Source: Caldifarciminota bacterium
GTDB taxonomy: Bacteria > Hydrothermota > Hydrothermia > LBFQ01 > DSFT01
Direction: 5' to 3'
Length of the DNA: 38,044 nt
Assembly: GCA_025060695.1 (NCBI GenBank)
Contig: JANXBH010000015.1
Span: 1-38,044 of the forward strand
Part shown: positions 484-35,463 of the stretch, piece by piece
Layout: every line of letters begins with the position of its first letter
How positions within the stretch are numbered: position 1 is the first letter of the stretch
The notes under the pieces: model-generated
Told to the model about the DNA's origin: nothing
Databases searched by the model: none
What the model saw: only the letters and a program-made list of their open reading frames with translations
Program-made: the position numbers and the translations under genes

Positions 484-493
484 CTTTAAAATT
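484..493 (+). promoter_or_regulatory. -10-like box of nadC
   Basis: CTTTAAAATT is present, with its TAAAAT core 10 bases before the nadC ATG. No Shine-Dalgarno sequence lies between, so a very short or absent leader is expected. Confidence 0.5.
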
Positions 494-502
494 AGAAAAA
501 TT

Positions 503-1345
503 ATGGAAGTTCTTAAATCTGAATTAGATTTCTATATAAAGCTTGCACTATTAGAAGATAGTTTATATGGAGATTTAACAAGTGAAATTCTTGAGATAAA
601 TGCTAATGGTGAGTTTTTGCTGTTAGCAAAGGAAGATTTTATTTTATGTGGAATAAGCATATTTGAAAGGGTTTTTAAATTCTTAGATGAAAATATTAAA
701 TTTGAGACATATTATAAAGATGGAGATTTAGTAAAAAGTGGAGAAATTATTTCAAGAATTTCGGGTAATGTTAAAAGCATTTTAAGGGGTGAAAGGGTAG
801 CCTTAAATTTTCTTCAAAAGTTATCAGGTATAGCAACTAATACCTATAATTTTGTAAAGCTTGTTGAGGGGACTAAAGTAAAAATTCTCGATACAAGAAA
901 GACTACTCCACTATATAGAAAGTTAGAAAAATATGCAGTTAAGATAGGTGGAGGATATAATCATAGATTTTCGCTATTTGATGGAGTTTTAATTAAGGAT
1001 AATCACATTAAAGTTCTTGGAGGTATTGAGAATGCTATTAAAATAGCAATAAAAAATAAACCATTTGGAAAAAAGATAGAAGTAGAGATTTCTAATATAG
1101 ATGAATTGAAAATTGTCTTAAATTATCCAATTGATATAGTAATGTTTGACAATTTTGGTATTGATATGATAAAAGAAGCGGTAAAGTTAATAGATAAAAA
1201 GCTTGAAATTGAAGTTTCAGGTGGTGTAAATATTAATAATGTAAGAGATATTGCTTTGCTTGGTGTTGATTATATATCAATTGGTGCATTAACTCATTCC
1301 TCAAGGTGGGTTGATGTTTCATTAGAATTTAATCAACTATTCTAA
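503..1345 (+). CDS. nadC: Nicotinate-nucleotide pyrophosphorylase (carboxylating)
   Basis: NadC converts quinolinate and phosphoribosyl pyrophosphate to nicotinate mononucleotide, CO2 and pyrophosphate in cytoplasmic de novo NAD synthesis. The 280-residue length is normal for the family. Visible family segments are ALLEDSLYGDLTSEI near the N-terminus, LSGIATNTY, the phosphoribosyl/quinolinate-binding LDTRKTTP stretch, GGGYNHRFSLFDGVLIKDNH in the middle, and the C-terminal SGGVN...SIGALTHS barrel end. The ATG lies 10 bases after a TAAAAT box without a Shine-Dalgarno sequence. The 3' end overlaps the convergent lamin-tail gene by 17 bases. No nadA or nadB is visible beside it. Confidence 0.95.
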   Translation: MEVLKSELDFYIKLALLEDSLYGDLTSEILEINANGEFLLLAKEDFILCGISIFERVFKFLDENIKFETYYKDGDLVKSGEIISRISGNVKSILRGERVALNFLQKLSGIATNTYNFVKLVEGTKVKILDTRKTTPLYRKLEKYAVKIGGGYNHRFSLFDGVLIKDNHIKVLGGIENAIKIAIKNKPFGKKIEVEISNIDELKIVLNYPIDIVMFDNFGIDMIKEAVKLIDKKLEIEVSGGVNINNVRDIALLGVDYISIGALTHSSRWVDVSLEFNQLF

Positions 1346-2756
1346 AGTAAGTTTTTTTACTTTTTTTCGGACTTTTAACAAGAAGTATATAAATACCACT
1401 ACTTAAATTGTTCGTATTTAAATTGAAAACAATTCTGTTTGTATTTTCAGCACTATAGAGTTTACTTATAAGTCTTCCTATGTTATCAAAAAGTAAAACT
1501 TCTACATCAGTATTTTCATATAGATAAGCGGAAATTGTAATTATTTCTCCTTTTCTCACCCTTTTATTTGAAACAAAAATATCTAAATTTAGAGAACTAT
1601 CGCTAATATATACACTATTTAACCTATTAGGTGTACCATATTCAACAAGCGAACTTTTAAAACTTTCCTTAAGATATCCTTTTAAACTTGGGTTTACTTT
1701 TTCTAAAGTTAAATTTCCTTTTCCTCCATACGAGGAACTATAATATACACTATCAAAAATAAAACCGAACCTTGAATATAATACAAGACTTTCATAATTA
1801 TCATTTAGTGTTATAAAATCCTCTAAACTATCTGCTCTAAAGACTTTATAGCTATAAGGCTGAACAGTTCCCTTCAAATTTACAATATTACCTGATAGGT
1901 CCTTTAAGTAAAATTTGCTAAGGTCAATTGAAGTATTTGATACATTGTAAATTTCAATCCACTCTGGTCCTAAGTCATATTCTATCTCATTTAATACAAC
2001 AATAGGATAGTAAATGGGAACATATATGTATTCAGAAAAATCATTTGAGACTAACTCTATTTTTGGAGATTTGAGTTCGTTTAAATTTATAGAAATTTCA
2101 TAACTACCACCTTGAGGTATTTGAACTTGATATAAAAATGTATCTCCTGATATAACTTTCACTTCCTGAATATAGCTTTCGTTTGAGAGATTTTTAAGTT
2201 TAATTTTTAATTGAGAAAGTGTTAAATATGCACTATCTAATTTTATGATACTATTTGAAAATATTGAATTTTGATAATTTGGAGTTCCATTTAAAATTAA
2301 GCTTTGACCCCATTCATCAATTTGAAAATTTATTCTTTCTACTGAATAGCCTTGACTTATATTAGTTATTGGTTTTTGAAATTTTGAAATTGTATCGTTG
2401 CTTTGATTTAATATATAAATACTATCTGTTTTTGAAAGTCCATTTCCTATAGAATTATCTTCAGTAGTTAAAATATTTCCAAAAAGATTATAATTTATTG
2501 GGCAGTTTGACAGATAGTCTCTATCAATTATTAAAGCATATTCCTTTGGTAAAATATATAATCTGGAAAAAGTATTATTTGGAGGGTTTTGAATTTCAAA
2601 TATAAAATCAATGTCTTCACCATCCGCGATTCTAAAACCATTTAAAAATATGGTGTCATCCGAAGGATTATATAGTTCAACATATTCTCCACAAGTTTCG
2701 CTTATTGGATAGTTCATTACTTCATTTATAATAATGGAAATTAATACTTTTAGCAT
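1329..2756 (-). CDS. Secreted protein with two lamin-tail domains and a C-terminal sorting-like domain
   Basis: This is a 475-residue extracytoplasmic protein. A lamin-tail-like domain starts almost at the N-terminus (INEVMNYP, then GEYVELYNPSDDTIFLNGF). A second copy begins near residue 255 (LNEIEYDLGPEWIEIYN, then TSIDLSKFYL). The last 80 residues form a beta-rich FlgD/T9SS type A-like domain (VLLFDNIGRLISKLY, then LSSGIYILLV). The ATG sits 6 bases after a TAAAAT box whose TAA is in frame, so translation cannot begin further upstream. The apparent export leader is therefore only about MLKVLISI. The substrate or ligand is unknown, and surface localisation is inferred from the domains. Confidence 0.75.
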   Translation of the reverse strand: MLKVLISIIINEVMNYPISETCGEYVELYNPSDDTIFLNGFRIADGEDIDFIFEIQNPPNNTFSRLYILPKEYALIIDRDYLSNCPINYNLFGNILTTEDNSIGNGLSKTDSIYILNQSNDTISKFQKPITNISQGYSVERINFQIDEWGQSLILNGTPNYQNSIFSNSIIKLDSAYLTLSQLKIKLKNLSNESYIQEVKVISGDTFLYQVQIPQGGSYEISINLNELKSPKIELVSNDFSEYIYVPIYYPIVVLNEIEYDLGPEWIEIYNVSNTSIDLSKFYLKDLSGNIVNLKGTVQPYSYKVFRADSLEDFITLNDNYESLVLYSRFGFIFDSVYYSSSYGGKGNLTLEKVNPSLKGYLKESFKSSLVEYGTPNRLNSVYISDSSLNLDIFVSNKRVRKGEIITISAYLYENTDVEVLLFDNIGRLISKLYSAENTNRIVFNLNTNNLSSGIYILLVKSPKKSKKTYFRIVD

Positions 2757-2762
2757 GTCTAT

Positions 2763-2770
2763 ATTTTAAA
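2763..2770 (-). promoter_or_regulatory. -10-like box of the lamin-tail gene
   Basis: On the minus strand TTTAAAAT precedes the ATG with a 6-base gap. The TAA of the box is an in-frame stop for the gene. Confidence 0.5.
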
Positions 2771-2773
2771 CCA

Positions 2774-2783
2774 TTAAAATTTT
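2774..2783 (+). promoter_or_regulatory. -10-like box of the barrel gene
   Basis: TTAAAATTTT has its TAAAAT core 6 bases before the TTG start and contains an in-frame TAA. It lies back to back with the box of the divergent lamin-tail gene. Confidence 0.5.
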
Positions 2784-2786
2784 CTT

Positions 2787-3902
2787 TTGCATCTTATATT
2801 ATCATTTTGGATAATGGAAGAGGTTGATACATTTGGAAATAGTTTTATTTCTGACTATATAAAGGGTGTATTTTTGGAATTTGAGAATTATAAATTTTAT
2901 GGTATAAATTTTCACAATGAAAATATTTTACTTCAACTTGGAGGTTTTTATGAGAAGGGTACTTACAATAAAAGAAAATTCTGGAATTTATATGCAGGCT
3001 ATGAAAATGCATTTTTTATTTTAAATGTGAATGATTTTTTAATTACTATTGGAAGAAGAACTCCGAGGATTTCAAGGGCAATTTTATGGGATAATTTTGC
3101 ACTGGATGGATTTAATTTAATTTATAGAAAAGCCATATTTTCTTATAGTTTTTGGGTTAATAAAATAAATTCCTTAATTACTCCAGAAAGCGTTAGTGCT
3201 ATAGGAAAAACTTATCCTCCTGGCTACTTATTTGATAGATACTTGACAATTAGAAGGCTTGAAATTTATTCAAAAGTTGGAAATTTTTATATAACTGATT
3301 ACGGTATTTTGCCACTTCCATATGAAAGGTCTATACCCTTTAGTTTGCTAAATCCATTTATATCAAGTTATAACTTGCAATGGAATGAGGGCTACGAAAC
3401 TAATACAATTTTATCTTTTGGATATTATAATAGGAGCTTTCTTTTTGAGTTATCAATTGACGATTTTCAATATAGTAAAGAAACTATAAATAAAATTCCT
3501 CCAAAATTAGCATTTTGGACTTACTATAAATGGAAAAACTATAAGTTTGAATTACTATATGCCATGCCATATACTTTCAATAATAAGAGATTTATTTCAA
3601 AATGGATTATATACGATGAAACTCCATCTTTAATAAGTTCAGATGAGGCAATATTAAGAATTGCTTATTTTACATTAGATAATTTTTTTTCAATTGGAAT
3701 AAAAGCGAAAGGTAGTGTAGATGTATATCAAAAAGAAGAAAACTATGTATTTAAGCTTCCTCTAATTGAACCTATAGAATATTTTCCAATAGCTAAAGCA
3801 TATAGAGTTTTTCACTACAATTCTCTTGTTTTGAAATTAGGTTTTTACTATGATGAAAATTTTCTTATTGATATTAACTTTCTTTTTGGGTTTAGATACT
3901 AA
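2787..3902 (+). CDS. Probable outer-membrane beta-barrel protein
   Basis: This 371-residue protein is dominated by alternating hydrophobic, aromatic and polar residues throughout, and it ends in an aromatic residue (FLFGFRY), as outer-membrane barrels do. I see no enzymatic motif. The TTG start is preferred because an in-frame TAA lies 12 bases upstream inside the promoter box, and starting at the first ATG (MEEVDTFG) would remove the only hydrophobic leader. The leader is short (about HLILSFW). The gene is divergent from the lamin-tail gene and overlaps the convergent tldD by 11 bases. It could belong to a Wzi-like capsule-associated barrel family, but I cannot confirm that. Confidence 0.6.
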   Translation: MHLILSFWIMEEVDTFGNSFISDYIKGVFLEFENYKFYGINFHNENILLQLGGFYEKGTYNKRKFWNLYAGYENAFFILNVNDFLITIGRRTPRISRAILWDNFALDGFNLIYRKAIFSYSFWVNKINSLITPESVSAIGKTYPPGYLFDRYLTIRRLEIYSKVGNFYITDYGILPLPYERSIPFSLLNPFISSYNLQWNEGYETNTILSFGYYNRSFLFELSIDDFQYSKETINKIPPKLAFWTYYKWKNYKFELLYAMPYTFNNKRFISKWIIYDETPSLISSDEAILRIAYFTLDNFFSIGIKAKGSVDVYQKEENYVFKLPLIEPIEYFPIAKAYRVFHYNSLVLKLGFYYDENFLIDINFLFGFRY

Positions 3903-5328
3903 ACAGTTTTACTTTTCTAAATCTACAAGGACTTGAACCATGACTTACTCGCATGATTTGTCCTGGCTCACCTTTACCACAGTTTCTAACTCCCCATAGT
4001 TTCCAATATTTTTCATTAGCTACGCCGTCAAGACTGCTCCAAAAAATAGGTGATATTCCGTAATATACGGGATTTTTATATACTTCTTCTTTTATAAGTT
4101 TTCCGTTTTTTATTTTATACGCTATTTCGGTGGAAAATTGAAAATTTAATCTTTTTTGGTCAATTGACCAAGATTTATTAGTTTCAAGATAAAAACCATC
4201 CTTAATATCAGATATAAGTTCTTCAAGCTCTTTATCTCCTGGTAATAAATTTACATTTGTCATCCTTACTATGGGCATTCTTCTATATGAACTAGCTCTA
4301 GAGGCACCTGTTGATTTTTTATTAATAAATCCTGCACTATCCCTAGAAGATAAGTAATTTACTAAAATACCATTTTCAATAAGTATTTCTCTTTTAGCCT
4401 TTACTCCATCATCGTCATATCCAAATGTGCCGAGTCCTCCTTTAATTGTCCCGTCTTGAACTATATTCATAAATTCACTTCCAAACTTTATACCAATACT
4501 GTTAGCCCAAGATGTGCCTGCATAACTTGCTTCAAGACCTAAAACTCTATCAAGTTCTAATGCATGACCTACACTTTCATGTATTTGTAAGGCCATTTGA
4601 TGAGTCCCTATAATAATATCGTATTCTCCTTTCTCAATTCTCTTTCCACTTAAAAGTCTTAAAACTTCATCTCTAACTATATGTGCATTATCTTCCCATC
4701 TTTGTTCTAAAATAACTTCAAATCCTCCACTTTTCATATCTCCTCCATGGCTTGCAGGATAGGAGCGAAACTGGAAATCTTCGTCAGAAAATGCATATGC
4801 GGTATATCCACCACCACTATGGTAAATTACTTGATGTATAAATGCACCTTCAGTAGATGCAAAGAATTTTTCAGTCTTTATAAAATTCATATATTGTTCC
4901 ACAAGTTTAATTCTACTTTCACTTCTTAAAACTTTATCAACTCCTTCCATGATATTTAGTTTTTCCTCTAAAGGAACATTAAATGGGTCTATCTGGATAT
5001 TGGTTATATATTCATCAATGTGAACTTCTTCCTCTGTTAGTTTTAATCCTCCTTTTCCTATTGAATAACTTGCTTTTGCAATTTCAATAGCTTCTTTTAT
5101 AGTTTTATAAACACTATCTATTTCAAGACTGCTAGTGCTTGAAAATCCCCAAAATCCTCTGTACATAACCCTAATACCTATTCCTATTTCTAAATTATGA
5201 CTAATATTTTCAATCTCACCATTTTTATATTCAATAATTTCTTCTTCTTCGTTAATTAGTCTGATATCTCCATAGTCTACATTTTCCCTTTTTATCATAT
5301 CAATTGCAGTTTTTACTATTTCCTTCAT
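3892..5328 (-). CDS. tldD: TldD-type metallopeptidase
   Basis: TldD and its partner TldE (PmbA) form a zinc protease that trims peptides and processes some modified peptides in the cytoplasm. The zinc-site motif HESVGHALELD is intact near residue 255, and the conserved C-terminal segments CGKGEPGQ and VSHGSSPCRF are present. The length of 478 residues fits TldD. The start overlaps the end of tatA by 29 bases, making this the last gene of the nuoJ-to-tldD operon. No tldE gene is adjacent. The 3' end overlaps the convergent barrel gene by 11 bases. Confidence 0.92.
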   Translation of the reverse strand: MKEIVKTAIDMIKRENVDYGDIRLINEEEEIIEYKNGEIENISHNLEIGIGIRVMYRGFWGFSSTSSLEIDSVYKTIKEAIEIAKASYSIGKGGLKLTEEEVHIDEYITNIQIDPFNVPLEEKLNIMEGVDKVLRSESRIKLVEQYMNFIKTEKFFASTEGAFIHQVIYHSGGGYTAYAFSDEDFQFRSYPASHGGDMKSGGFEVILEQRWEDNAHIVRDEVLRLLSGKRIEKGEYDIIIGTHQMALQIHESVGHALELDRVLGLEASYAGTSWANSIGIKFGSEFMNIVQDGTIKGGLGTFGYDDDGVKAKREILIENGILVNYLSSRDSAGFINKKSTGASRASSYRRMPIVRMTNVNLLPGDKELEELISDIKDGFYLETNKSWSIDQKRLNFQFSTEIAYKIKNGKLIKEEVYKNPVYYGISPIFWSSLDGVANEKYWKLWGVRNCGKGEPGQIMRVSHGSSPCRFRKVKLFSI

Positions 5329-7050: not shown

Positions 7051-7064
7051 AGCTAACCTCCTTT

Positions 7065-7343
7065 TTAACTTTCATCCAAGTTTTCAACAAAATTAAGAGC
7101 AGTTTCATAATCTTTTAACATTTGGTGAAGTTTTTCTATTTTCTTCTCCTTTTGTAATATCCTATGTGAAAGAAGTAAGACCAATAAAGCAATCTTTCTA
7201 TCTCTTGGCAGGGACTTATACTTTTCTTCAATATAGCTACTCACTTCTTCAATTATTTTTTTGATTTTATCTAATTCCTCCTGATTTTCCACTTTTATTT
7301 TAAAATTATACACACTTCCAAATATTTCAAATTCTACTTTCAT
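7065..7343 (-). CDS. zapA: Cell division protein ZapA
   Basis: ZapA bundles FtsZ filaments at the division site. The 92-residue protein has the family layout: an N-terminal beta segment (VEFEIFGSVYNFKI), a helix with EVSSYIEEKYKSLP, the hydrophobic helix KIALLVLLLSHRIL, and a C-terminal coiled coil. It overlaps the coiled-coil gene before it by 4 bases. A zapA-rny neighbourhood also occurs in other bacterial groups. Confidence 0.85.
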   Translation of the reverse strand: MKVEFEIFGSVYNFKIKVENQEELDKIKKIIEEVSSYIEEKYKSLPRDRKIALLVLLLSHRILQKEKKIEKLHQMLKDYETALNFVENLDES

Positions 7344-10361: not shown

Positions 10362-10368
10362 AGTATGG

Positions 10369-10379
10369 AAATTTTAAAG
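10369..10379 (-). promoter_or_regulatory. -10-like box of the nuoJ-pheT-rny-tldD operon
   Basis: CTTTAAAATTT on the minus strand has its TAAAAT core 9 bases before the nuoJ ATG. It lies in the 20-base gap after the epimerase gene. Confidence 0.5.
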
Positions 10380-11452: not shown

Positions 11453-11458
11453 ATTTGC

Positions 11459-11469
11459 AAATTTTAAAG
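11459..11469 (-). promoter_or_regulatory. -10-like box of the epimerase gene
   Basis: CTTTAAAATTT on the minus strand has its core 8 bases before the TTG start. Confidence 0.45.
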
Positions 11470-11490: not shown

Positions 11491-11501
11491 CTTTAAAATT
11501 T
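11491..11501 (+). promoter_or_regulatory. -10-like box of lapA-lapB
   Basis: CTTTAAAATTT has its TAAAAT core ending 6 bases before the ATG of lapA. This gap decides for that ATG over the TTG 6 bases upstream. Confidence 0.5.
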
Positions 11502-11505
11502 GTAT

Positions 11506-14566: not shown

Positions 14567-15962
14567 TGAATTCTACTTGATGTGCAAGGTCCAATATATC
14601 CTTTTCTCTAAAGTAATTTCCCATTATTTGAATACTAATAGGAAAACCATTTTTTGAAATTTTTACTGGGACGGAAATTGATGGAATACCTACAAGATTT
14701 GCTAATACTGTATATACATCTGCTAAATACATCTTTATTGGATCATCAAGTTTTTCACCTAATTTCCAAGGAAATACAGGGACAGTAGGTGTTATTATTA
14801 CATCAACCTTTTTAAACGCTTTCATAAATTCTTCTTTTATAAGCCTTCTTACTTTACTTGCTTTTATGTAGTATTCATCGTAATATCCATATGAAAGGCA
14901 AAATGTCCCTATTAGAATTCTTCTTTTTACTTCTTCTCCAAATCCTTCACTTCTTGTTTTTATATATAAATCCCATAAGTTATCACTGCTTCCTCTATAT
15001 CCATATCTTATACCATCGTATCTTAAAAGATTACTGCTTGCCTCAGATGAACTTATTATGTGATACACACTTAATGCGTATTTCCAATATTCTAACTTAA
15101 TATCCTCTACAATATGTCCTATATCTACTAATTTACTTATTGCATACTCAAAACCGTCTTTGATTTCCTTTTCTACATCTTCTGTAATTATATCTCTTGG
15201 TATTCCAACTTTATATCTTTTATTTATAAAAATATCCTCAATTTTTTCTACCTCTATATTTACACTTGTGCTGTCCTTTGGGTCATATCCCGAGATTACT
15301 CTATAAATAAGGGCCAAGTCTTTTACATTTAAGGCAATAGGTCCAATCTGGTCTAAGCTTGACGCAAATGCAACCAGTCCATATCTTGAAACTCTTCCAT
15401 ATGTTGGCTTTAATCCAACTACACCATTAAATGCACTAGGTTGTCTTATAGAACCACCTGTGTCCGAACCAAGTGATGCTGGCACTTCACCTAATTTTAC
15501 TGCAACTGCAGAACCTCCTGATGAACCACCTGCTACGAAGCTATGATCTATTGCATTTTTTGTAGGACCAAAATATGAAAATTCAGTAGAACAACCCATA
15601 CCAAATTCATCTAAATTTGTCTTACCAATTATTATAGCTCCCTGATTTAATAGTCTTTTTACTGCTGTCGCGGAATAGGGACTTTTAAAACCAAGTAGTA
15701 TTCTTGAACCACACGTTAATTCCATACTCTCCACTGCTATATTGTCCTTTATAGCTATTGGAATACCATAAAGCTCAAATTCATCTACACTATATTTAGA
15801 GAGTTCAATTGCTCTATCTAATGCCTCTTCTTTGTATATATTTATAAATGCATTATAAATCTCTTCCTTTTCTTCAATAACCTTTATGTATTCGGATACA
15901 ATTTCATATGGGGTTGTTTCTTTTTTTCTATATAGTTCTAAAATTTGCAATATTGTTTTCAT
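14553..15962 (-). CDS. gatA: Aspartyl/glutamyl-tRNA(Asn/Gln) amidotransferase subunit A
   Basis: GatA is the amidase subunit of GatCAB, which converts misacylated Glu-tRNA-Gln or Asp-tRNA-Asn to the amidated form. The 469 residues are typical. The Ser-cisSer-Lys machinery is visible: the Lys in IPIAIKDNIAV, GGSSGGSAVAV and LGSDTGGSIRQPSAFNG, then the GLKPTYGRVSRYGLVAFASS signature. It starts in an ATGA overlap with glmU, and no gatB or gatC is beside it. Confidence 0.96.
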   Translation of the reverse strand: MKTILQILELYRKKETTPYEIVSEYIKVIEEKEEIYNAFINIYKEEALDRAIELSKYSVDEFELYGIPIAIKDNIAVESMELTCGSRILLGFKSPYSATAVKRLLNQGAIIIGKTNLDEFGMGCSTEFSYFGPTKNAIDHSFVAGGSSGGSAVAVKLGEVPASLGSDTGGSIRQPSAFNGVVGLKPTYGRVSRYGLVAFASSLDQIGPIALNVKDLALIYRVISGYDPKDSTSVNIEVEKIEDIFINKRYKVGIPRDIITEDVEKEIKDGFEYAISKLVDIGHIVEDIKLEYWKYALSVYHIISSSEASSNLLRYDGIRYGYRGSSDNLWDLYIKTRSEGFGEEVKRRILIGTFCLSYGYYDEYYIKASKVRRLIKEEFMKAFKKVDVIITPTVPVFPWKLGEKLDDPIKMYLADVYTVLANLVGIPSISVPVKISKNGFPISIQIMGNYFREKDILDLAHQVEFNETS

Positions 15963-16921
15963 CCTTTTATATATGTATTTCTAATTACTTCTCCTCTTTT
16001 TGTTATATGATTTTCTAAAACCACATTTGGTCCAATTTCACAATCTTCTGATATATATGTATTCCCAAGTAGTGATACAAATGGATATATTATTACATCA
16101 GGCTCAATTATTACATCCTCCTCAATGTAAACAAGACTTGGATTTATTATACTAACACCATTTTCCATGTGCTTTCTTATTATTCTTTCTTGTAAAATAC
16201 TATGTGCTTGCGAGAGTTGTTCTCTTGTATTTATTCCAATTACTTCTCTCCAGTCATCAATTTTATATGCATATACACCACCATATTTTCTTTGTATAAT
16301 TGAAATTACATCAGTTAAGTAATATTCACCTTGTTTATTATCGGGTTTTATTTCATTAAGTGCTTCAATTAGTATATTACTCTCAAATATGTAAATTCCT
16401 GAGTTTATTTCTTTTATTTGTTTTTCTTCAGGAAATGCGTCAGCTTCCTCTACTATCATCAAAACTCTATTACCACTGCTTCTGATTATTCTTCCATATC
16501 CTGTTGGATCAGGTATTTCTGTGGTTAAAATTGTAACGATGGCATCATTTTCTTTGTGAAATTTATATAGCTCTTTCATAGTATCAATCCTAATTAATGG
16601 AGCGTCTGCAGGCATTACTAAAACATCCATATCCTTGTCTCTAATATATGGTATAACCTGCATAACTGCGTGTCCTGTCCCAAGTGGTTCATTTTGATAT
16701 ACGAATTTAATTTCGTCTCCATTTAATATTTCTCTTATACCTTCAGTATTTTGACCTATAACTATGTAAACTTCGTCTGGTATTAAACTTTTACAAGCTC
16801 TTAATGAATAGTAAATAATTGGTTTTCCACATAATTTATGTAATACTTTACTTTTCTTTGATTTCATTCTTTTTGATTTTCCACCTGCAAGAATAATACA
16901 ACATAAAGGATATCTTTCCAT
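15959..16921 (-). CDS. glmU: UDP-N-acetylglucosamine pyrophosphorylase, GlmU without the acetyltransferase half
   Basis: GlmU makes UDP-GlcNAc for peptidoglycan and LPS. From the ATG (MERYPLCCIILAGG) the protein has 320 residues: a complete uridyltransferase domain (ILAGGKSKRMKSKKSKVLH, NEPLGTGHAV, MPADAPLI, EINSGIYIF, GEYYLTDVI) and only about 65 residues of left-handed beta-helix. Full-length GlmU has about 450-460 residues, so the acetyltransferase active site is absent. I choose this ATG because a TAAAAT box lies 8 bases upstream. The frame nevertheless continues without a stop into the truncated methyltransferase before it, so a 557-residue fusion is possible. The stop overlaps gatA (ATGA). 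Confidence 0.88.
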   Translation of the reverse strand: MERYPLCCIILAGGKSKRMKSKKSKVLHKLCGKPIIYYSLRACKSLIPDEVYIVIGQNTEGIREILNGDEIKFVYQNEPLGTGHAVMQVIPYIRDKDMDVLVMPADAPLIRIDTMKELYKFHKENDAIVTILTTEIPDPTGYGRIIRSSGNRVLMIVEEADAFPEEKQIKEINSGIYIFESNILIEALNEIKPDNKQGEYYLTDVISIIQRKYGGVYAYKIDDWREVIGINTREQLSQAHSILQERIIRKHMENGVSIINPSLVYIEEDVIIEPDVIIYPFVSLLGNTYISEDCEIGPNVVLENHITKRGEVIRNTYIKG

Positions 16922-16927
16922 ATTAAG

Positions 16928-16938
16928 AAATTTTAAAG
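16928..16938 (-). promoter_or_regulatory. -10-like box of glmU
   Basis: CTTTAAAATTT on the minus strand has its core 8 bases before the glmU ATG, inside the methyltransferase-glmU joint frame. It is part of the 14-base repeat flanking the R-M fragment. Confidence 0.5.
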
Positions 16939-16941
16939 TTT
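16928..16941 (-). repeat. 14-base direct repeat, glmU-side copy
   Basis: AAACTTTAAAATTT on the minus strand is identical to the copy at the other border of the R-M fragment. It overlaps the glmU promoter box and marks the point where methyltransferase similarity stops. It could be a target-site duplication or simply two copies of a common promoter motif. Confidence 0.5.
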
Positions 16942-17641
16942 TAGTCTCGGATATTTCTATAACTATAAAATTTCTACCTAATCTTCTTGCTACAACCGCA
17001 GTAGTTCCACTACCTGCAAATGGATCTAAAACTATATCGTTAGGATTGGAACTAGTAAGGATTATTCTTTCTATTAGTTTTTCTGGCATTTGGCAGGGAT
17101 GGTTTTTAACCCTTTCTTTAAAAGTTCCGCATATTCTTGGAAAAGTCCATACGTCATCCGGCACTCTACCCTTTGGATTTGCCCTTTTGTCTTTGTATAT
17201 TAGCTGTCTTGCAGATGGTACTCTTATAGCATCTGCGTTAAAGGTAAATTCTTTGTCATCCTTCGTAAAGTATAGTATGTGCGTATGAGCTCTTGTAAAT
17301 TTCTTTTTCTGGTGCTGACCAAACGTGTAATACCATATTATCCAGTTTCTCATATGAAGACCCAGTTTTTTGAGTATCAAAACTACTTCTGCGGCATATT
17401 CGTCTCCTATAGCTATGTATATGGAACCTGTTCTTTTTAAAAGTCTTACACATTCTCCTATCCATCTTTCTGACCAAGAAACATACTCTTCATATTTTAG
17501 CTTATCATTCCATTTATCGTATTTAATACCTATGTTAAATGGTGGGTCTTTGAATACCAAGTCCACTGACTCATCAGGAAAAGCTTTCATTATTTCTATG
17601 CAGTCTCCGAGATAAACCATATTGAGCTCCATAGCTTATAG

Positions 17642-18322
17642 CCTTAAAAATTTGACATGGTTTTATTTTAAACTGTGATTAAATTATCTGGCGTTCCACC
17701 TTTTCTTTGCATTGTTATCCTACCTATGTATAGATTCCCTCCTTTTGAAACCCTTACATCTTCACAGCCAAAGAAGTTCATGGCAAGGTTTATATCTGCT
17801 ATGGAAAATTGGGTTTCTTTGAGTTTTTTGTCGTATCTTGCAACCATAAACCAATCAGCAGAAAGCGAGCCCCTGTCTTTTATAATATCACTCATATTTT
17901 GTTCTGTTGAAAGAAGCGTATTATCTTGCTTACTATATTCTCTGGCATTTCATTTAAGTATAATCTTCTCTCGTCTCTTTGAGCAATATTTCTGGGAGGG
18001 GTAATTTCACCGGTGAAAAGCTTTAGCCAGTGATCTATTTCTTCATCAAAACCCCACATCTCTCTGTATTCAGATACCTTTTTACTGTTTGCCTTCTTAA
18101 CCGATATATTCTCTACGAAGCATGTATTACAGTATAGAAATTCTACTCTTAATTGAATATCTTTCTTACTTATGCGCGCAGGAATTACGTGAGAATATAA
18201 GTCTTTCACGTCTTCTGGAACATAGCCCATATATTTTAGCCAATATTTAGCTTCCCTATCTTTCTTGTAATTATTTAACTTTTGAGCTTTTCATGTGCAA
18301 ATCCACCCTTTGCAGCACTTTC
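17642..18322 (-). pseudogene. Decayed type II restriction endonuclease gene with three frameshifts
   Basis: Four reading-frame pieces line up as one protein. ESAAKGGFAHEKL comes first, then KLNNYKKDREAKYWLKYMGY running into YSHVIPARISKKDI and ending FFQQNK near 17893. Next is SDIIKDRGSLSADWFMVARY through GRITMQRKGGTPDNLI, and finally QFKIKPCQIFK in another frame after about 17677. The order and motifs resemble type II endonucleases found beside beta-class methyltransferases, and the overlap with the methyltransferase start supports pairing. Frame breaks fall near 18285-18293, 17893 and 17677. The gene also lacks its own start codon, because the sequence is cut at the native promoter copy. The specificity is unknown. 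Confidence 0.65.
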
Positions 18323-18333
18323 CTATTCAAAAC

Positions 18334-20218: not shown

Positions 20219-20226
20219 AATTCTTG

Positions 20227-20237
20227 AAATTTTAAAG
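20227..20237 (-). promoter_or_regulatory. -10-like box of ddl
   Basis: CTTTAAAATTT on the minus strand has its core 10 bases before the ddl ATG, next to the divergent yceD box. Confidence 0.45.
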
Positions 20238-20239
20238 AC

Positions 20240-20250
20240 CTTAAAATTTT
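20240..20250 (+). promoter_or_regulatory. -10-like box of yceD
   Basis: CTTAAAATTTT has its TAAAAT core 7 bases before the ATG, with no Shine-Dalgarno sequence between. Confidence 0.45.
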
Positions 20251-23241: not shown

Positions 23242-23254
23242 CTTTAAAATTTTA
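23242..23254. promoter_or_regulatory. Overlapping divergent -10 boxes for sufS and the heme-barrel gene
   Basis: One palindromic stretch, CTTTAAAATTTTA, reads TAAAAT on both strands. The plus copy ends 6 bases before the sufS GTG, and the minus copy ends 10 bases before the barrel ATG. The two cores overlap by 2 bases. Confidence 0.5.
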
Positions 23255-23256
23255 TA

Positions 23257-24456
23257 GTGAATGTAGAAAAAATAAGAAATGATTTTCCACTTATAAAGCA
23301 AGGGTTTATCTACTTTGACAGTGCGGCAAGTTCCCAAAAACCTAAAATAGTAATTGATAAGATAAAAGAAATTTATGAAAGTTACTATTCAAATGTTCAT
23401 AGAGGCGTATATAGGATTTCTGCTAAGATTACAGAAGAATACGAAAGTGCAAGAGAAAAAATAGCAAGATTTATAAATGCGAAAAGTCAAGAAGTAATCT
23501 TTACAAGAAATGCAACAGAAGGATTAAATTTAGTTTCTTATATTCTTTCGGACCACATAGAAGAAGGAGATGAGATAGTAATTACTATATCTGAGCATCA
23601 TTCTAACTTAGTCCCTTGGCAACAACTTTCAATTAAGAAAGGAGCTATTTTAAAATATATTGACGTTTATAACGATGGAAGGTTAAATCTTGAATACCTT
23701 GAAAATACTATTACTGAAAGGACAAAAGTTTTGGCAATTGGTCATGTTTCAAATATCACAGGTATAATTCATCCAATTGAAAAGATTATTAAATTTGCAA
23801 GAAATTTTGAGCATATCTATATTGTAGTAGATGCATGTCAGAGCGTACCTCACATAAAAGTAGATGTAAAAAAATTGGATTGTGATTTTTTAGCTTTTTC
23901 GGCTCACAAGATGCTTGGTCCAACGGGCATAGGTATTTTATATGCAAAAGAAGAGCTATTAGAAAAACTTCCTCCATTTCTCTACGGCGGCGATATGATA
24001 GATACTGTTGAACTATATGAAACTAAGTTTAATAGAATTCCGTATAAATATGAAGCAGGAACTCCAAACTTCGTAGATGCTATAGCATTTGGCTATGCAG
24101 TTGACTATATAAATGAAATTGGAATGGAGAATATATATAACCATGAGAAGAAATTATTAGATTATTTTCTATCAAAAATGTTATATTTAGATTTTGTTGA
24201 ATTATATGGACCAAAAGATAGTAAAGATAGAATATGCGTGGTTCCATTTAATGTAAAAAGTCTACATCCTCATGATACTGCTTCATTTTTAGACTATAAA
24301 AATATTTGTGTAAGAAGTGGTCATCATTGTGCACAGCCTCTTTTAAAGAGAATGAAAGTAGGAAATTCAGTAAGGGCAAGTTTATATCTTTATAATACGA
24401 CTGAAGAAATAGATATTTTCATAGATGCTTTAAAGGAGATTTATAAATACTTATAA
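23257..24456 (+). CDS. sufS: Cysteine desulfurase, SufS type
   Basis: SufS takes sulfur from cysteine, using PLP, for iron-sulfur cluster assembly. The 399-residue length fits group II enzymes. Visible are FDSAASSQKP, the EHHSNLVPWQ active-site His segment, DACQSVPH, the PLP lysine in SAHKMLGPTGIG, and the catalytic cysteine in SGHHCAQPLL. The GTG start lies exactly 6 bases after a TAAAAT box. No other suf gene (sufB, C, D or U) lies nearby. The 3' end overlaps the convergent OsmC-like gene by 6 bases. Confidence 0.93.
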   Translation: MNVEKIRNDFPLIKQGFIYFDSAASSQKPKIVIDKIKEIYESYYSNVHRGVYRISAKITEEYESAREKIARFINAKSQEVIFTRNATEGLNLVSYILSDHIEEGDEIVITISEHHSNLVPWQQLSIKKGAILKYIDVYNDGRLNLEYLENTITERTKVLAIGHVSNITGIIHPIEKIIKFARNFEHIYIVVDACQSVPHIKVDVKKLDCDFLAFSAHKMLGPTGIGILYAKEELLEKLPPFLYGGDMIDTVELYETKFNRIPYKYEAGTPNFVDAIAFGYAVDYINEIGMENIYNHEKKLLDYFLSKMLYLDFVELYGPKDSKDRICVVPFNVKSLHPHDTASFLDYKNICVRSGHHCAQPLLKRMKVGNSVRASLYLYNTTEEIDIFIDALKEIYKYL

Positions 24457-24843: not shown

Positions 24844-24849
24844 TCTAAA

Positions 24850-24855
24850 AGTTTA
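24850..24855 (-). promoter_or_regulatory. Possible -10 box of the OsmC-like gene
   Basis: TAAACT on the minus strand lies 6 bases before the ATG, a one-base variant of the common TAAAAT core. Confidence 0.3.
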
Positions 24856-24873
24856 AAGATAAATTATTATTAG

Positions 24874-24886
24874 CTTTAAAATTTTA
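24874..24886 (+). promoter_or_regulatory. -10-like box of the transhydrogenase alpha gene
   Basis: CTTTAAAATTTTA has its core 4 bases before the first TTG and 7 bases before the second TTG. The spacing seen elsewhere favours the second. Confidence 0.45.
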
Positions 24887-28647: not shown

Positions 28648-28649
28648 TT

Positions 28650-29300: not shown

Positions 29301-29312
29301 AAAATTTTAAAG
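29301..29312 (-). promoter_or_regulatory. -10-like box of the lipoprotein pair
   Basis: CTTTAAAATTTT on the minus strand has its core 9 bases before the ATG. Confidence 0.5.
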
Positions 29313-29732: not shown

Positions 29733-31344
29733 AATTAAATTTTAAGGTCATCGTAAATGTTCTTCCTACAAAATATGGTAGATATACGCTTGCAGTATTA
29801 TCTAAGACGTCGTCAACTCTGAATTCCATATCCAAAAGTTTAAATTTATAACTATACATAATATCAAAAGAAGACAATCTTGGAATAAGCTCAGTTTTAT
29901 CCTTTGTCCAAAAGCTCGCATTAAGTCCCTTATATTCAATCCCTATCTTTAGTTTATACTGTGGAATGTCAATAGGAGTTTTACCAATAAAAAACGAACC
30001 AGATATCAGATAGTCTTTATATTTAATCGTTCTTTCAAAGTTTATGCTATATATCTCTAAGTTTTTTATATTTTCATATGAATAAATGACATATCCATCG
30101 CTATAACCTGCATTTGCAAAACCTATATAGTTAAAAATTTTACTATAGTTTATCTTGGTTCCAAAAATTTCAACGCTTGCTCCAAATAAATATTCATTTT
30201 CTAAATTACTATTTCCAACAACTTTATACTTAAGCTCAGGATATATAAAATTCATATACAATTCCTTTATGGAAGGAAACTTTGAAATAAGAAATAGTTC
30301 AAAGTTTTTATATTCAAAACTTATAGATGGCTTGGTGTTTTCAAAGCTTAATTTAAATAAAAAGTCTCTATAGAATTCTATTGAAAACTTTGACCTTATA
30401 ATTCCTACTGGTTTTAGTAAGTTATTTCCACCAAGATAGTCTACATAAAATCCATATTCTAAACCATAATATCCCCAGTTCTTAAAAGCTACATTTCTAT
30501 TGTTAAAATCAAACAGGTACTCATAATTTTCATTTTTAAAATTTCTTGAACTATTACTATGTCTATATATCTGTAAGTTTATAGGATGAAAGTTAATTAA
30601 AAGTCTTGTATCTGAAATTCTTTCTGAATGTAAAACTTTCTTTTCACTATGGATTTGTAAAAAAGAAAATTTCTCAAACTGATATTTGCTATAAAAAATA
30701 TCATTATTTATGTAATTATAGGTGTTTCTTAAAAGTTCGTATTTAATGTTCTTATGGTTTAAAACTAAACCATAACTTCTACTTGTTTTTAATGTTAACC
30801 ATAGTCCATTTTTTTGCTCGGTTGAAACATATAAATTTAGATTTTTGACGTTTATTTCTTTTATAGAATTTAAAGGTATTGTTGAAATATCTATAACTTC
30901 AAATGTTCTTCCTATTAGGTTTATACCGTCTAAATAGATATTAGTAAATTTAGAAGGAATACCTTTTATTGAAACTGACAAGCCCGATGGATTAAACTCC
31001 ACATCTGTTATTGAAGAATTTAATATTATATCATTAAACTCAGGATTTTTTATTTTATGTCCAGCATCTATTTTGTTTGATATAACTTCCTGTTCTTTTA
31101 ATGGGTATTCCTTGAAGTTCAAAATTATAAGAGGATTTTCTATGTTATTTATAAATGAGGTATCTTTATAAAGTGGATGTTTTATTTCCATTTTGCATGG
31201 TATTTTTGTTTTTAAACTAAAATTTCCAGAACTATCAGAGATTGCCCTTTCATTATTACATTTAATATATGCATCTTGAATTGGTTCGTTAAATTTGTTC
31301 AATATTTTACCATTTATTTCTAAATTTAGAATAATATTCAACAT
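29719..31344 (-). CDS. TonB-dependent receptor-like outer-membrane protein
   Basis: The 541-residue protein has an N-terminal carboxypeptidase-regulatory-like beta domain (INGKILNKFNEPIQDAYIKC, then SDSSGNFSLKT). A plug-like region follows (SVSIKGIPSKFTNIYLDGIN, in place of the usual VxIRGxxS...VYIDG). The long barrel includes a PSIKELYMNF...GNSNLENEY stretch like the receptor consensus, and the protein ends in Phe (FNFENF). It probably imports a ligand with TonB energy, but no TonB box is clear. The ATG lies 11 bases after a promoter box. The leader is very short (MLNIILNL). Confidence 0.75.
   Translation of the reverse strand: MLNIILNLEINGKILNKFNEPIQDAYIKCNNERAISDSSGNFSLKTKIPCKMEIKHPLYKDTSFINNIENPLIILNFKEYPLKEQEVISNKIDAGHKIKNPEFNDIILNSSITDVEFNPSGLSVSIKGIPSKFTNIYLDGINLIGRTFEVIDISTIPLNSIKEINVKNLNLYVSTEQKNGLWLTLKTSRSYGLVLNHKNIKYELLRNTYNYINNDIFYSKYQFEKFSFLQIHSEKKVLHSERISDTRLLINFHPINLQIYRHSNSSRNFKNENYEYLFDFNNRNVAFKNWGYYGLEYGFYVDYLGGNNLLKPVGIIRSKFSIEFYRDFLFKLSFENTKPSISFEYKNFELFLISKFPSIKELYMNFIYPELKYKVVGNSNLENEYLFGASVEIFGTKINYSKIFNYIGFANAGYSDGYVIYSYENIKNLEIYSINFERTIKYKDYLISGSFFIGKTPIDIPQYKLKIGIEYKGLNASFWTKDKTELIPRLSSFDIMYSYKFKLLDMEFRVDDVLDNTASVYLPYFVGRTFTMTLKFNFENF
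29737..29746 (-). promoter_or_regulatory. -10-like box of the TPR lipoprotein
   Basis: CTTAAAATTT on the minus strand lies inside the last codons of the upstream receptor gene, with its core exactly 6 bases before the TTG start. Confidence 0.4.
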
Positions 31345-31352
31345 ATTGAAAG

Positions 31353-31364
31353 AAAATTTTAAAG
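31353..31364 (-). promoter_or_regulatory. -10-like box of the receptor gene
   Basis: CTTTAAAATTTT on the minus strand has its core 11 bases before the ATG, the longest gap in the set. Confidence 0.45.
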
Positions 31365-31381
31365 TAATTTGATGCGCATAA

Positions 31382-31393
31382 CTTTAAAATTTT
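31382..31393 (+). promoter_or_regulatory. -10-like box of the ftsK operon
   Basis: CTTTAAAATTTT has its core 6 bases before the ATG and contains an in-frame TAA, so this start is fixed. Confidence 0.55.
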
Positions 31394-31396
31394 GGT

Positions 31397-31978: not shown

Positions 31979-34155
31979 TAGGTTTTATATTAGTCGCTTC
32001 ATTCTTATTTCTTTCATATTATCTAAAATATATAAACCGCAACGATATTCTATATTATGTTTTTTCTGCGCTATGCATATTATCTATTGTCGGGCTAATT
32101 TCATACAACGCTAATCAGGAACCTTACTTAAATTTTATAGGTATTGTTGGTTTTGAAATCTCAAAATTTTTAACCTCCATATTTACAAAGTTTTTCTCCA
32201 TTGTAATTTTAATATCCATTATGGTCTTTCCAAAAATAGACAACATGTACCATAAGAGGTTATTTTTACTTTTATTATCTCTTTTTCTATTTCAACTTCC
32301 ATTTAAGTCTCCGTATTTTATAGACGAATACATAGGATTTTTTAAGTATCCTGTTTTCTTTATTTTTTCAATTGCCTTGATATATCTAAATTTCAAGGAT
32401 ATGTTATTTAGAAAAGAAAATAATGAAATTACTAAAAAAGAGGAGGACAATTACGAAGTAGTTGCTTACGAAAGTGAAAAGCATTTTACACCTACTAAGA
32501 TAAATGAAAATGAAGAAATAAAAAAACCTCAACTTGTATATAGAAATGATATTTTAAGTGTTTTGTATAGTGAAGAGGAGGAAAAGGAGCAAGAGGTGGA
32601 AGATTTATCAAAATTAATAGAAGATAAATTCTTGGAGTTTAATATAAGTGGTAAAGTAGTTAGTAAAACTGTTGGACCTTTAATTACAAGATACGAGTTT
32701 GAACCTGCTGCTGGAGTAAAACTTTCTAAAATTCAATCACTTAGTGATGATCTAACCCTAAGGCTAAAGACCGCTGATGTAAGAATTACATCTCCTCTGC
32801 CAAATAAGGGGTTAATTGGTATAGAAGTGCCAAATAAAAGGAGAAAAATTGTATATTTTAAAAAATTAGTCCAAACCGAGGAATTTAAAAACTCAAAAAA
32901 ACCTCTTCTATTTACTCTTGGTGTTGATGTAGAAGGTAATGTAAAATACGAAGATTTATCTAAAATGCCACATCTTCTTATTGCAGGTTCAACGGGTTCA
33001 GGGAAATCCGTTTGTATAAATACAATAGTTGCAAGTCTTTTAATAAAGAATTCTCAAAATACGGTAAGGTTTTTACTTATTGATCCAAAGATGGTAGAGC
33101 TTTCATTATATGAAGGAATACCTCATCTTTTAATGCCAGTAATTAGGGATAGAAAACAAGCGGTAAAGGCACTAAAGATGGCAGTCGCTTGGATGGAATA
33201 TAGATATACACTTTTAGCAAAAGTGGGTGCAAAAAGTTTAGAAAGTTATAATATGAAAACAGGAAATTACAAACCTTATATTGTAATAATAATAGATGAA
33301 TTTGCTGATTTAATTTTAACTCAAGGCAAGGAGGTAGAGGGACCAATAGCAAGACTTGCTCAAATGGCAAGAGCGGTAGGTATCCATTTAGTAGTAGCTA
33401 CCCAAAGACCTTCAGTAGATGTAATAACAGGCATTATAAAAGCAAACTTTCCAGTAAGAATTGCTTTTAAAGTTCCTTCTAAAATAGACTCAAGAGTTAT
33501 ATTAGATACGATAGGTGCCGAAAAATTATTAGGTATGGGTGATATGCTATATATTCCGCCCGGCTCTTCTGAGCCTCAAAGATTTCATGCAAGTTTTATC
33601 TCAGAGGAGGAAATAACTAATATTGTAAGTAAGATTACATTTGATTATTTAAATCAAAAGTTTATAGAGAAATTTTCAAAAACAAATCAAGATTTAATAT
33701 ATAAAATCATGCAGAACAATTATATAGGCGTGTTTTGCAGAGAGGACGAAGTAGCACTTGAAGAAAAGCAGAGAGTTGTTTCAGAATGGATTAAAGAGTA
33801 TCTAAATTTAAACCTTTCAAATGAACAAATTATTCAAATGATTGATGAAATAAGAAGTGAATATTACGAGCCTATTGAGGAATTTAGTGCTTATGTTGAA
33901 GAGGACGAGGATGAAGTCAGTGAGATATCTGGAAGTTATGACCCACTAATTAAGGATGCTATAAAGCTTATAGCTGGAAGAAAAACCACATCCGCTACAT
34001 TTTTACAGAGGAAATTAAAAATAGGTTTTGCAAGAGCAGCAAGGATAGTAGACCAACTTGAGGAGCTTGGTATAGTTGGACCTGCTGACGGACCAAAACC
34101 AAGGGAAGTAAGAATATCTCCCGAAAAGTTAGATGAAATCTTAAGGAGGTTATAG
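31975..34155 (+). CDS. ftsK: DNA translocase FtsK/SpoIIIE
   Basis: FtsK pumps chromosomal DNA through the division septum and helps resolve dimers. The 726 residues show four or so N-terminal membrane helices (to about 140), an acidic linker, and the alpha domain (KTVGPLITRYEFEPAAGVKLS). The motor has Walker A (LIAGSTGSGKSVC), Walker B (VIIIDEFADL) and the ATQRPSVDVITG sensor region. The C-terminal winged-helix gamma domain (SATFLQRKLKIGFARAARIV) reads DNA polarity. It starts with GTG in an overlap with the upstream gene. Confidence 0.97.
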   Translation: MIGFILVASFLFLSYYLKYINRNDILYYVFSALCILSIVGLISYNANQEPYLNFIGIVGFEISKFLTSIFTKFFSIVILISIMVFPKIDNMYHKRLFLLLLSLFLFQLPFKSPYFIDEYIGFFKYPVFFIFSIALIYLNFKDMLFRKENNEITKKEEDNYEVVAYESEKHFTPTKINENEEIKKPQLVYRNDILSVLYSEEEEKEQEVEDLSKLIEDKFLEFNISGKVVSKTVGPLITRYEFEPAAGVKLSKIQSLSDDLTLRLKTADVRITSPLPNKGLIGIEVPNKRRKIVYFKKLVQTEEFKNSKKPLLFTLGVDVEGNVKYEDLSKMPHLLIAGSTGSGKSVCINTIVASLLIKNSQNTVRFLLIDPKMVELSLYEGIPHLLMPVIRDRKQAVKALKMAVAWMEYRYTLLAKVGAKSLESYNMKTGNYKPYIVIIIDEFADLILTQGKEVEGPIARLAQMARAVGIHLVVATQRPSVDVITGIIKANFPVRIAFKVPSKIDSRVILDTIGAEKLLGMGDMLYIPPGSSEPQRFHASFISEEEITNIVSKITFDYLNQKFIEKFSKTNQDLIYKIMQNNYIGVFCREDEVALEEKQRVVSEWIKEYLNLNLSNEQIIQMIDEIRSEYYEPIEEFSAYVEEDEDEVSEISGSYDPLIKDAIKLIAGRKTTSATFLQRKLKIGFARAARIVDQLEELGIVGPADGPKPREVRISPEKLDEILRRL

Positions 34156-34157
34156 CT

Positions 34158-34583
34158 TTGTTTATTAAATATTTACAAGACTTCAAGTGGGAAAGTGTAG
34201 AGGAAAAACCATATAAAACTAATGATGGTTCATTTCTAAATGTAAAGAGATTTGAAATAGTAAAGGGAAAAGATATTGAATTTAGATATTTTGAAATAGA
34301 AAAAAATGGTTATTCAAGTCTTGAAAAGCACGAACATGAGCATATAGTTATGTTTATAAAAGGAAGAGGATTGGTTCTAATTGGCTCAGAAATATACGAA
34401 TTTAAACCATTTGATATAGTATATATTCCTTCTTGGATGCCCCATAGATTTATTTCAAAAGATGAAAACATTGGATTTATTTGTATTGTAAAGTCAAACC
34501 GAGATAAACCTCAAAAATTAACTAAGGAAGAGATAGAAGATATTATTTCTAAAAATCCAAATTTAAAGGATATTTTAAAATAG
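34158..34583 (+). CDS. Cupin-domain protein
   Basis: The 141-residue protein is a single cupin barrel: EKHEHEHIVMFIKGRGLVLI carries the first metal-binding motif with three histidines, and PSWMPHRF the second. Such proteins bind a metal and can be enzymes or sensors; the function here is unknown. The TTG start is decided by an AAGGAGG Shine-Dalgarno sequence located in the last codons of ftsK, 8 bases upstream. It overlaps the next gene by one base. Confidence 0.85.
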   Translation: MFIKYLQDFKWESVEEKPYKTNDGSFLNVKRFEIVKGKDIEFRYFEIEKNGYSSLEKHEHEHIVMFIKGRGLVLIGSEIYEFKPFDIVYIPSWMPHRFISKDENIGFICIVKSNRDKPQKLTKEEIEDIISKNPNLKDILK

Positions 34584-35443
34584 TGGAAGTTATTGGTATT
34601 GACGAAAATGGCTTAGGTCCTATTCTTGGTCCATTTATTATAAGTGGTATTAAGGTAAAGGTAAATGAACCTATCTTTTTTAATTCAAAATTAGAAAACT
34701 TACGGACAAAAATAAAGATAGATGATAGCAAAGAAATATTTAAAAGAAGTGAAATGTGGACATATTCAAAAGGTGAAATAATTTCTCTTTCTATTTTAAA
34801 GGCTTTTACTTTTACAGAAATAATAGAAAAATACGTAAAACTGTTAATTACTGACTTTGAAAAGAATTTTTATATCCAAAACTATAAACTTCCAATTTGG
34901 GCAAAGTATATATCAGAAGATATAGACATAGGAGAAAAAATAAATTTTATAAACTATAGGGCTTTTGCAGTATTTCCAAAAATATTCAATAATATGCTAA
35001 AAGATATGCATAAATTTCAATTGGGGATTAAATTATTTATAGAACTTGCTAAAGAATTATCAAATAGTGATTATAATGTTGTTATGTGTGGTAAAGTTGG
35101 AGGCTATACTTACTATTTAAAACCATTTTCACTAATTGGTGTAAAAACATACGAAATAATAAAGGAAACAAGGGGACACTCAGCGTATAGAATTTTTTAT
35201 ATGAATAAAACATTTGAATTTCACTTCTTAATGGATGGTGATAAAGTATACTATCCAATAGCCGTTGCATCAATTATTGGAAAATATCTTAGGGAAATTT
35301 TTATGAAATCTTTAAATGAGAGATTTGGTCTTTATGATAAAATACCATATAGTAGTGGATATAAGCATGATTATAAAACCGCAACTTTAATTGAAAAAAT
35401 TCAAACTATGTATAAATTAGAAGACTTTGTCCGAATAAAGTAA
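34583..35443 (+). CDS. Divergent RNase HII/HIII-like protein
   Basis: The N-terminus GIDENGLGPILGPFIISGI corresponds to the RNase HII motif GIDExGRGPxxGP, with the first catalytic Asp-Glu intact. Later, YPIAVASIIGKYLRE corresponds to the ISAASIxAKxxRD motif, with Glu in place of the last Asp, and SSGYKHDYKTATLIE matches the GY...H region. The 286-residue length exceeds RNase HII (about 200) and has a large insert in the middle (CGKVGGYTYYL, then TRGHSAYRI). It may process RNA-DNA hybrids, but substrate preference is unclear. The GTG start overlaps the cupin stop by one base. Confidence 0.7.
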   Translation: MEVIGIDENGLGPILGPFIISGIKVKVNEPIFFNSKLENLRTKIKIDDSKEIFKRSEMWTYSKGEIISLSILKAFTFTEIIEKYVKLLITDFEKNFYIQNYKLPIWAKYISEDIDIGEKINFINYRAFAVFPKIFNNMLKDMHKFQLGIKLFIELAKELSNSDYNVVMCGKVGGYTYYLKPFSLIGVKTYEIIKETRGHSAYRIFYMNKTFEFHFLMDGDKVYYPIAVASIIGKYLREIFMKSLNERFGLYDKIPYSSGYKHDYKTATLIEKIQTMYKLEDFVRIK

Positions 35444-35449
35444 TTGTAG

Positions 35450-35460
35450 TTTAAAATTTT
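35450..35460 (+). promoter_or_regulatory. -10-like box of the interrupted native gene
   Basis: TTTAAAATTTT has its core 6 bases before an ATG and contains an in-frame TAA. The gene it served is now cut off after about 28 codons. Confidence 0.5.
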
Positions 35461-35463
35461 TAT

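Follow-up and report, generated by a model that had tools for sequence, protein, structure and literature searches.

A recurrent box next to start codons and predicted leaderless transcription in a relative of Candidatus Caldipriscus

The 38,044-nucleotide stretch of DNA analysed here (contig JANXBH010000015.1 of assembly GCA_025060695.1, hereafter the window) carries nadC, glmU, sufS, rny and other genes, many of which are preceded at very short range by a recurrent box with a TAAAAT core. A sequence-only reading of the window had listed 18 such boxes and taken them for -10 promoter elements that put transcription on the start codon itself, leaving the mRNAs without leaders. The window is part of a 1.5 Mb genome (G000) whose sequence places it in the candidate phylum WOR-3 / Caldipriscota, near Candidatus Caldipriscus; when RNase Y was compared, the nearest named relatives were the metagenome-assembled genome (MAG) JZ-1.bins.166 (77%) and Candidatus Caldipriscus T1.2 (59%). 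A cultured WOR-3 strain, sy37, has a GC content of 60.6% and has been suggested to belong to the T1.2 cluster (PMC12285271). Following the box through this genome and its relatives, we found that the observation holds and lies far above chance.

Boxes and genes in the window

The boxes are listed below with the gap, in bases, between the core and the start codon that follows; the last line is a contrast case with a Shine-Dalgarno (SD) sequence.

484..495 (+): box CTTTAAAATTAG, gap 10, before nadC (ATG 503), identified by TIGR00078
2760..2771 (-): box GTTTAAAATATA, gap 6, before ATG 2756
2772..2783 (+): box CATTAAAATTTT, gap 6, before a putative TTG start at 2787; the gene caller put the start at 2814
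10368..10379 (-): box CTTTAAAATTTC, gap 9, before a NADH dehydrogenase subunit J-like gene (ATG 10361); the L001 orthologue has the same box
11458..11469 (-): box CTTTAAAATTTG, gap 8, before a UDP-GlcNAc epimerase-like gene (TTG 11452); the family match begins at residue 2
11491..11502 (+): box CTTTAAAATTTG, gap 6, before ATG 11506 (98-codon frame)
16927..16938 (-): box CTTTAAAATTTC, gap 8, before glmU (ATG 16921); box conserved in L001
18334..18345 (-): box CTTTAAAATTTT, gap 6 to TTG 18330, which opens a 19-codon frame only
20226..20237 (-): box CTTTAAAATTTC, gap 10, before ATG 20218
20239..20250 (+): box CCTTAAAATTTT, gap 7, before ATG 20255; divergent partner of 20218, with 36 bp between the genes
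23246..23257 (-): box CTATAAAATTTT, gap 10, before ATG 23238; forms one palindrome with the overlapping (+) box
23242..23253 (+): box CTTTAAAATTTT, gap 6, before sufS (GTG 23257); 18 bp to the divergent 23238 gene
24847..24858 (-): box CTTTAAACTTTT (core TAAACT), gap 6, before ATG 24843; a 19th site, absent from the earlier list
24874..24885 (+): box CTTTAAAATTTT, gap 7, before a pntA-like gene (putative TTG start 24890)
29301..29312 (-): box CTTTAAAATTTT, gap 9, before ATG 29294
29736..29747 (-): box CCTTAAAATTTA, gap 6, before TTG 29732; lies within the end of the upstream gene (putative sub-operon promoter)
31353..31364 (-): box CTTTAAAATTTT, gap 11, before ATG 31344
31382..31393 (+): box CTTTAAAATTTT, gap 6, before ATG 31397
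35449..35460 (+): box GTTTAAAATTTT, gap 6, before ATG 35464
7051..7066 (-): SD sequence AAAGGAGG, before rny (ATG 7050); conserved in L001

All 18 boxes of the earlier list are present in the window sequence, and their gaps run from 6 to 11 bases with eight at exactly 6, as had been described (6 in seven or more cases, 7-11 in the others). The one before 18330(-) leads only into the 19-codon frame and into no gene as the sequence stands. That box is likely a promoter; a leaderless start there is not supported. Adjoining its 19-codon frame is a 112-residue open reading frame (17892-18330, -) whose frame extends upstream past the first start codon without meeting a further one, an arrangement that looks like a frameshift, real or assembly-derived. 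For the TTG starts at 2787 and 24890, the gene caller set both starts further downstream. The glmU start at 16921 falls within a longer frame (15959-17632, -) in which a DNA adenine methyltransferase (residues 4-230) runs in frame into GlmU (from residue 238), and a relative confirms 16921 as the start proper to glmU. Window and L001 are conserved along glmU up to its box and no further; at both the glmU and the nuoJ-like starts the box is kept in L001 while the sequence upstream differs. Since glmU's own box and ATG lie at the junction and conservation with L001 stops there, the methyltransferase appears to have been placed upstream of glmU, its reading running into glmU.

The exact 12-mer consensus occurs at only six of the window sites; the rest carry one or two mismatches, and the site before 2756(-) more. 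With up to two mismatches allowed, the motif matched 64 times in the window against a shuffle mean of 53.6. Window-only statistics at this threshold were therefore dropped as uninformative, and significance rests on placement and on the whole genome.

Distribution of the box across the genome and its relatives

Two exact words were counted, the 12-mer [AG]CTTTAAAATTT and the 11-mer CTTTAAAATTT, with reversed patterns as controls. Genes were compared in a 616 kb sample of G000 taken in stretches (654 kb including the window), in which starts were called by a simple script from coding potential alone, and in samples from nine relatives, which were small (12-42 divergent-first genes each). G032 is a congener, and G033 and G034 are sister-genus genomes, assigned to Caldipriscus by kinship. 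Because TTTAAAATTTC overlaps real boxes and so contaminates counts of the reversed 11-mer, that control was dropped in favour of the reversed 12-mer, the gapped pattern in reverse and placement outside coding sequence.

The exact 12-mer [AG]CTTTAAAATTT(T) occurs 198 times in G000 compared with 22 times reversed, and CTTTAAAATTT followed by ATG after 4 to 8 bases occurs 209 times compared with 6; with a spacing of three bases the count falls to just 4. Of the exact 11-mer boxes, 163 of 171 (95%) lie outside coding sequence, though 89% of the 654 kb sample is coding. We then counted ATG triplets after exact boxes, independently of gene calls. At core distances of 3, 4 and 5 bases there were 2, 3 and 4; at 6, 7, 8, 9 and 10 bases there were 27, 29, 14, 22 and 11; beyond that the count dropped to a background of 4. 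The distance distribution, earlier proposed as a check, is thus sharply peaked and not flat. Initiation about 7 bases past the hexamer would produce just such a one-sided cliff at 6, since a start codon nearer than 6 would be lost from the RNA. A box with at most one mismatch was found within 12 bases of the start in 95 of 156 divergent-first genes (61%) and in 54 of 363 operon-internal genes (15%), so that internal genes have the motif at about a quarter of the first-gene frequency, and not at the equal frequency that the earlier reading had named as a refutation.

The box is also found before genes that are not translated. In the G000 sample it lies 6-14 bases ahead of the mature 5' end of every unit-first tRNA gene (13 of 13) and about 60 bases upstream of the 16S rRNA gene. 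Since tRNA and rRNA genes have the box, it is a promoter rather than a translation signal, and an mRNA with a leader of 0-4 nt is therefore the best reading. Most first tRNA genes of the sister genus, at 49-51% GC, likewise carry the box. The tRNA promoter of an outgroup genome is of the ordinary TTGACA-TATAAT type.

An SD sequence was present in none of 188 box-proximal genes compared with 93 of 410 others, in agreement with the earlier statement that none fits in the gaps; this exclusion is partly forced, as the box fills the SD position. The SD genes that had been named (396, 5328, 7050 and 34158) are correct, and the proposed coexistence of two initiation modes is borne out by an intact full anti-SD in the 16S rRNA and by four genes that have an SD between the start codon and a box located 19-27 bases before it. 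The gene at 34158-34583 (+) has a TTG start behind a strong SD (AAGGAGGTTATAGCT), so TTG is used by SD genes too.

Aligned boxes gave the 12-13 bp consensus RCTTTAAAATTT(T), with C at -15 in 91-93%, T at -14 in 82-92% and an invariant T at -12, and no comparable information upstream. In keeping with the earlier reading, no consistent -35 is apparent: every upstream column holds at most 0.2 bit, save the base adjoining the box. Loss of sigma region 4.2 as the cause of the missing -35 was rejected, since the RER-RQIE residues are kept. Stabilisation of -35-less promoters by CarD was set aside as well, there being no clear separate CarD in the genus; the domain was found in Mfd-length frames, with one extra match in G033.

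A scan of 147 genomes of the phylum showed strong enrichment of the exact 12-mer in no genomes but the two of this genus (198/22 and 315/57); in the sister genus the enrichment was weak (19/2 and 17/6). The 11-mer followed by ATG after 4-8 bases gave 293 vs 8 in the congener and 26 and 25 vs 0 in the sister genus. De novo motif discovery recovered the box in four genomes of the family, including the congener, G033 (with which the Caldipriscus T1.2 locus L002 was pooled) and G034, and a CCTTAAAAT-like form in the sister family; the looser TAWWWT is raised close to the start in two further families, where 66% and 64% of divergent-first genes have it. In the outgroup, motif discovery found no such box, and 8 of 12 divergent-first genes have an SD. 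The earlier suggestion that the box is specific to this lineage thus stands for the exact 12-mer at the level of strong enrichment; the box itself is common to Caldipriscus, and TAWWWT extends to other families of the class. For ten box genes an orthologue was available in the congener; eight of these orthologues have the box with at most one mismatch, two have a weaker box and none has an SD.

Probable leaderless transcription and the alternatives

We consider it very likely that the box is a primary-sigma -10 element working largely without a -35 and giving mostly leaderless or nearly leaderless first-gene mRNAs. In the proposed mechanism, TAAAAT would be the -12 to -7 hexamer of [AG]CTTTAAAATTT(T), read by the primary sigma factor of the lineage, and RNA polymerase would initiate about 7 bases past it, largely without a -35 element. 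The first-gene start codon would then stand at or within a few bases of the initiation point, leaving a leader of 0-4 nt, and ribosomes would start on the 5'-terminal AUG, GUG or UUG without SD pairing. Translation would depend on an SD or on translational coupling for genes inside operons and for the minority of first genes whose leaders are longer. The box being nearly symmetric, one palindromic copy (CTTTAAAATTTTAAAG) would fire both ways and serve two divergent leaderless genes. The mRNAs of most box-bearing operon-first genes thus very probably begin at the start codon. Transcription on the start codon itself, as first suggested, is supported by the cliff, the contrast between first and internal genes and the boxes of tRNA and rRNA genes, with the start point predicted from promoter geometry.

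Several points weigh against this interpretation. Leaders of a few bases are indistinguishable from none by sequence, and gaps of 9-11 imply leaders of about 3-5 nt if the start is fixed. The 15% of internal-class genes that carry the box call for an explanation, and sub-operon promoters have been proposed for them. Of 96 first genes with neither a near box nor an SD, 39 have a box further up, and consequently some called starts are wrong or the genes are truly leadered. TTGACA-like words are in excess 16-18 bases upstream (22.9% vs 16.1%), so that a weak -35 share is conceivable.

The first alternative is that the box is a promoter -10 but that transcripts mostly have short leaders, about 3-10 nt in length. 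Many core gaps measure 8-11 and the start site may shift by a few bases, but gaps of 6 and 7 are the commonest, the cliff stands at 6 and there is no room for anything resembling an SD; we regard this as improbable. Less probable still is that the box is the operator of a global DNA-binding protein, or marks an alternative-sigma regulon, instead of being a general promoter. The palindrome-like form of the box and the three sigma-70 region 2 proteins in the genome would fit. However, the box is directional and at a fixed distance to starts, it precedes tRNA, 16S rRNA and unrelated housekeeping genes, its TAnnnT core is the sigma-70 -10 pattern, and self-palindromic copies are a minority (86 of 530). 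A translation-initiation element, such as an A/U-rich site within an ordinary leader to which the ribosome or S1 binds, of the kind proposed for non-SD AT-rich sites in Bacteroidetes-type bacteria, would account for the closeness of the box to start codons in place of an SD, and AT-rich non-canonical ribosome sites have been described for the Fibrobacteres-Chlorobi-Bacteroidetes (FCB) group (PMC9581028). This very improbable reading is refuted by the presence of the same box, at promoter distance, on tRNA and rRNA genes; moreover, internal genes need translation signals too and have the box far less often, the cliff is one-sided, and the box is also found upstream of SD leaders. Finally, an artefact of the 70% A+T composition, which the window count near the shuffle mean might have suggested, has a negligible probability and is already refuted by the whole-genome counts, the placement outside coding sequence and the presence of the same box at 49-51% GC in Caldipriscus.

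Divergent pairs, the sigma factor and known systems

Seventy-eight divergent pairs in the sample have a median intergenic distance of 53 bp; the box is on both genes in 37 and on one in 32. In eight of the 78, including 23238/23257, a single palindromic box is common to both genes, with 14-26 bp between the start codons. G000 has the perfect palindrome CTTTAAAATTTTAAAG at 7 places and the congener at 10; a search of the 19 other relatives found no copy. Self-palindromic boxes (the 86 of 530 above) exceed the 37 expected when columns are shuffled; the expectation rises to 74 when intact downstream 5-mers are reshuffled. Coupling of palindromy to particular boxes was therefore rejected; it is the entire downstream word TAAAG that is enriched. 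Published bidirectional promoters of E. coli and Salmonella (Warman 2021; PMC10268837) likewise have near-symmetric -10 DNA that fires in both directions, with start sites 7-25 bp apart, and by their geometry the shared-box pairs fall under that definition. The predicted separation for the palindrome is 15 bp here compared with 18 bp most often there, and both products are predicted to be leaderless mRNAs here, whereas there the divergent RNA is often non-coding.

The primary sigma factor has I in G000 (L151) and M in G032 (L148) at the position that we take, from the alignment, to be E. coli T440; most relatives have T there and one has S. Also in region 2.4, this family and its sister family have H in place of Q446. 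The extended -10 residues H455 and E458 are unchanged. The T440 residue is described as conserved across phyla (PMC8407463), and in E. coli the T440I exchange suppresses mutations at -12 (PMC2613000). One may speculate that the T440 change fits the box, in which the -12 T does not vary. It is possible, if somewhat short of probable, that the primary promoter grammar of this genus has collapsed to a single 13-bp box without a -35, read by a T440I/M sigma, and that genome compaction has left a 16-bp palindrome as the whole control region shared by two leaderless divergent genes.

RNase P RNA was considered as a natural ruler for start sites and dropped, since RF00010 was not found in the family (G000, G032, G033, G034; RF00011 was not searched). 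TIGR03875 (named RNA ligase partner), which we take to be the RNA-free RNase P family, was found in all four. Because RF00010 was not found and TIGR03875 is in every one of these genomes, protein-only tRNA processing is likely in the family. The G000 match (C22:7718-8149, -) includes a single in-frame TGA and has no counterpart to the first 38 positions of the model.

Genes expressed without leaders from an adjacent -10 are known from both Actinobacteria and Deinococcus-Thermus (PMC3160421, PMC12340547), in agreement with the sequence-only reading. As in TA-led leaderless genes (Zheng 2011, PMC3160421) and the ORF-adjacent -10 (ORF, open reading frame) of Deinococcus-Thermus (PMC12340547), where TAnnnT stands about 6-7 bases before the start of genes without an SD and SD genes coexist, the genes studied here have TAnnnT with a core gap of 6-10 bases, in keeping with the distance of about 10-12 bases expected of the class, no SD, enrichment of the box at first genes and, judged indirectly from the tRNA and rRNA genes, a promoter role for it. 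They differ in that the word is longer and nearly fixed (12-13 bp, RCTTTAAAATTT) rather than TAnnnT alone, in that it also precedes tRNA and rRNA genes, and in the WOR-3 lineage. The leaderless promoters of Actinobacteria (e.g. Mycobacterium tuberculosis, PMC3898074) share TANNNT and, by prediction, the abundance of leaderless mRNAs; here GC is much lower, the box is more rigid and as little as 14 bp separates divergent start codons. Extended -10 promoters (TGn-TATAAT; PMC2613000) also hold information upstream of the hexamer and owe little to a -35, but here a C at -15 followed by T at both -14 and -13 takes the place of TG, and a TTT run follows the hexamer, so the box was not assigned to that class. 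Nor is it of the archaeal leaderless type, whose TATA box lies 25-37 bases before the start, the core gap here being 6-10.

A literature search returned no paper combining 'leaderless' and 'WOR-3', and we read the system as a so far undescribed form of bacterial leaderless expression peculiar to this lineage. Widespread leaderless expression would thereby reach a deep-branching phylum that is mostly uncultured and includes many thermophiles, and the motif is precise enough for correcting gene starts and operon maps in the genomes of that phylum. In E. coli, T440I is known from the laboratory, where it suppresses -12 mutations; what we take to be the same change is met here in nature. A promoter consisting of a single, often shared box would probe the minimal DNA needed by a primary sigma factor.

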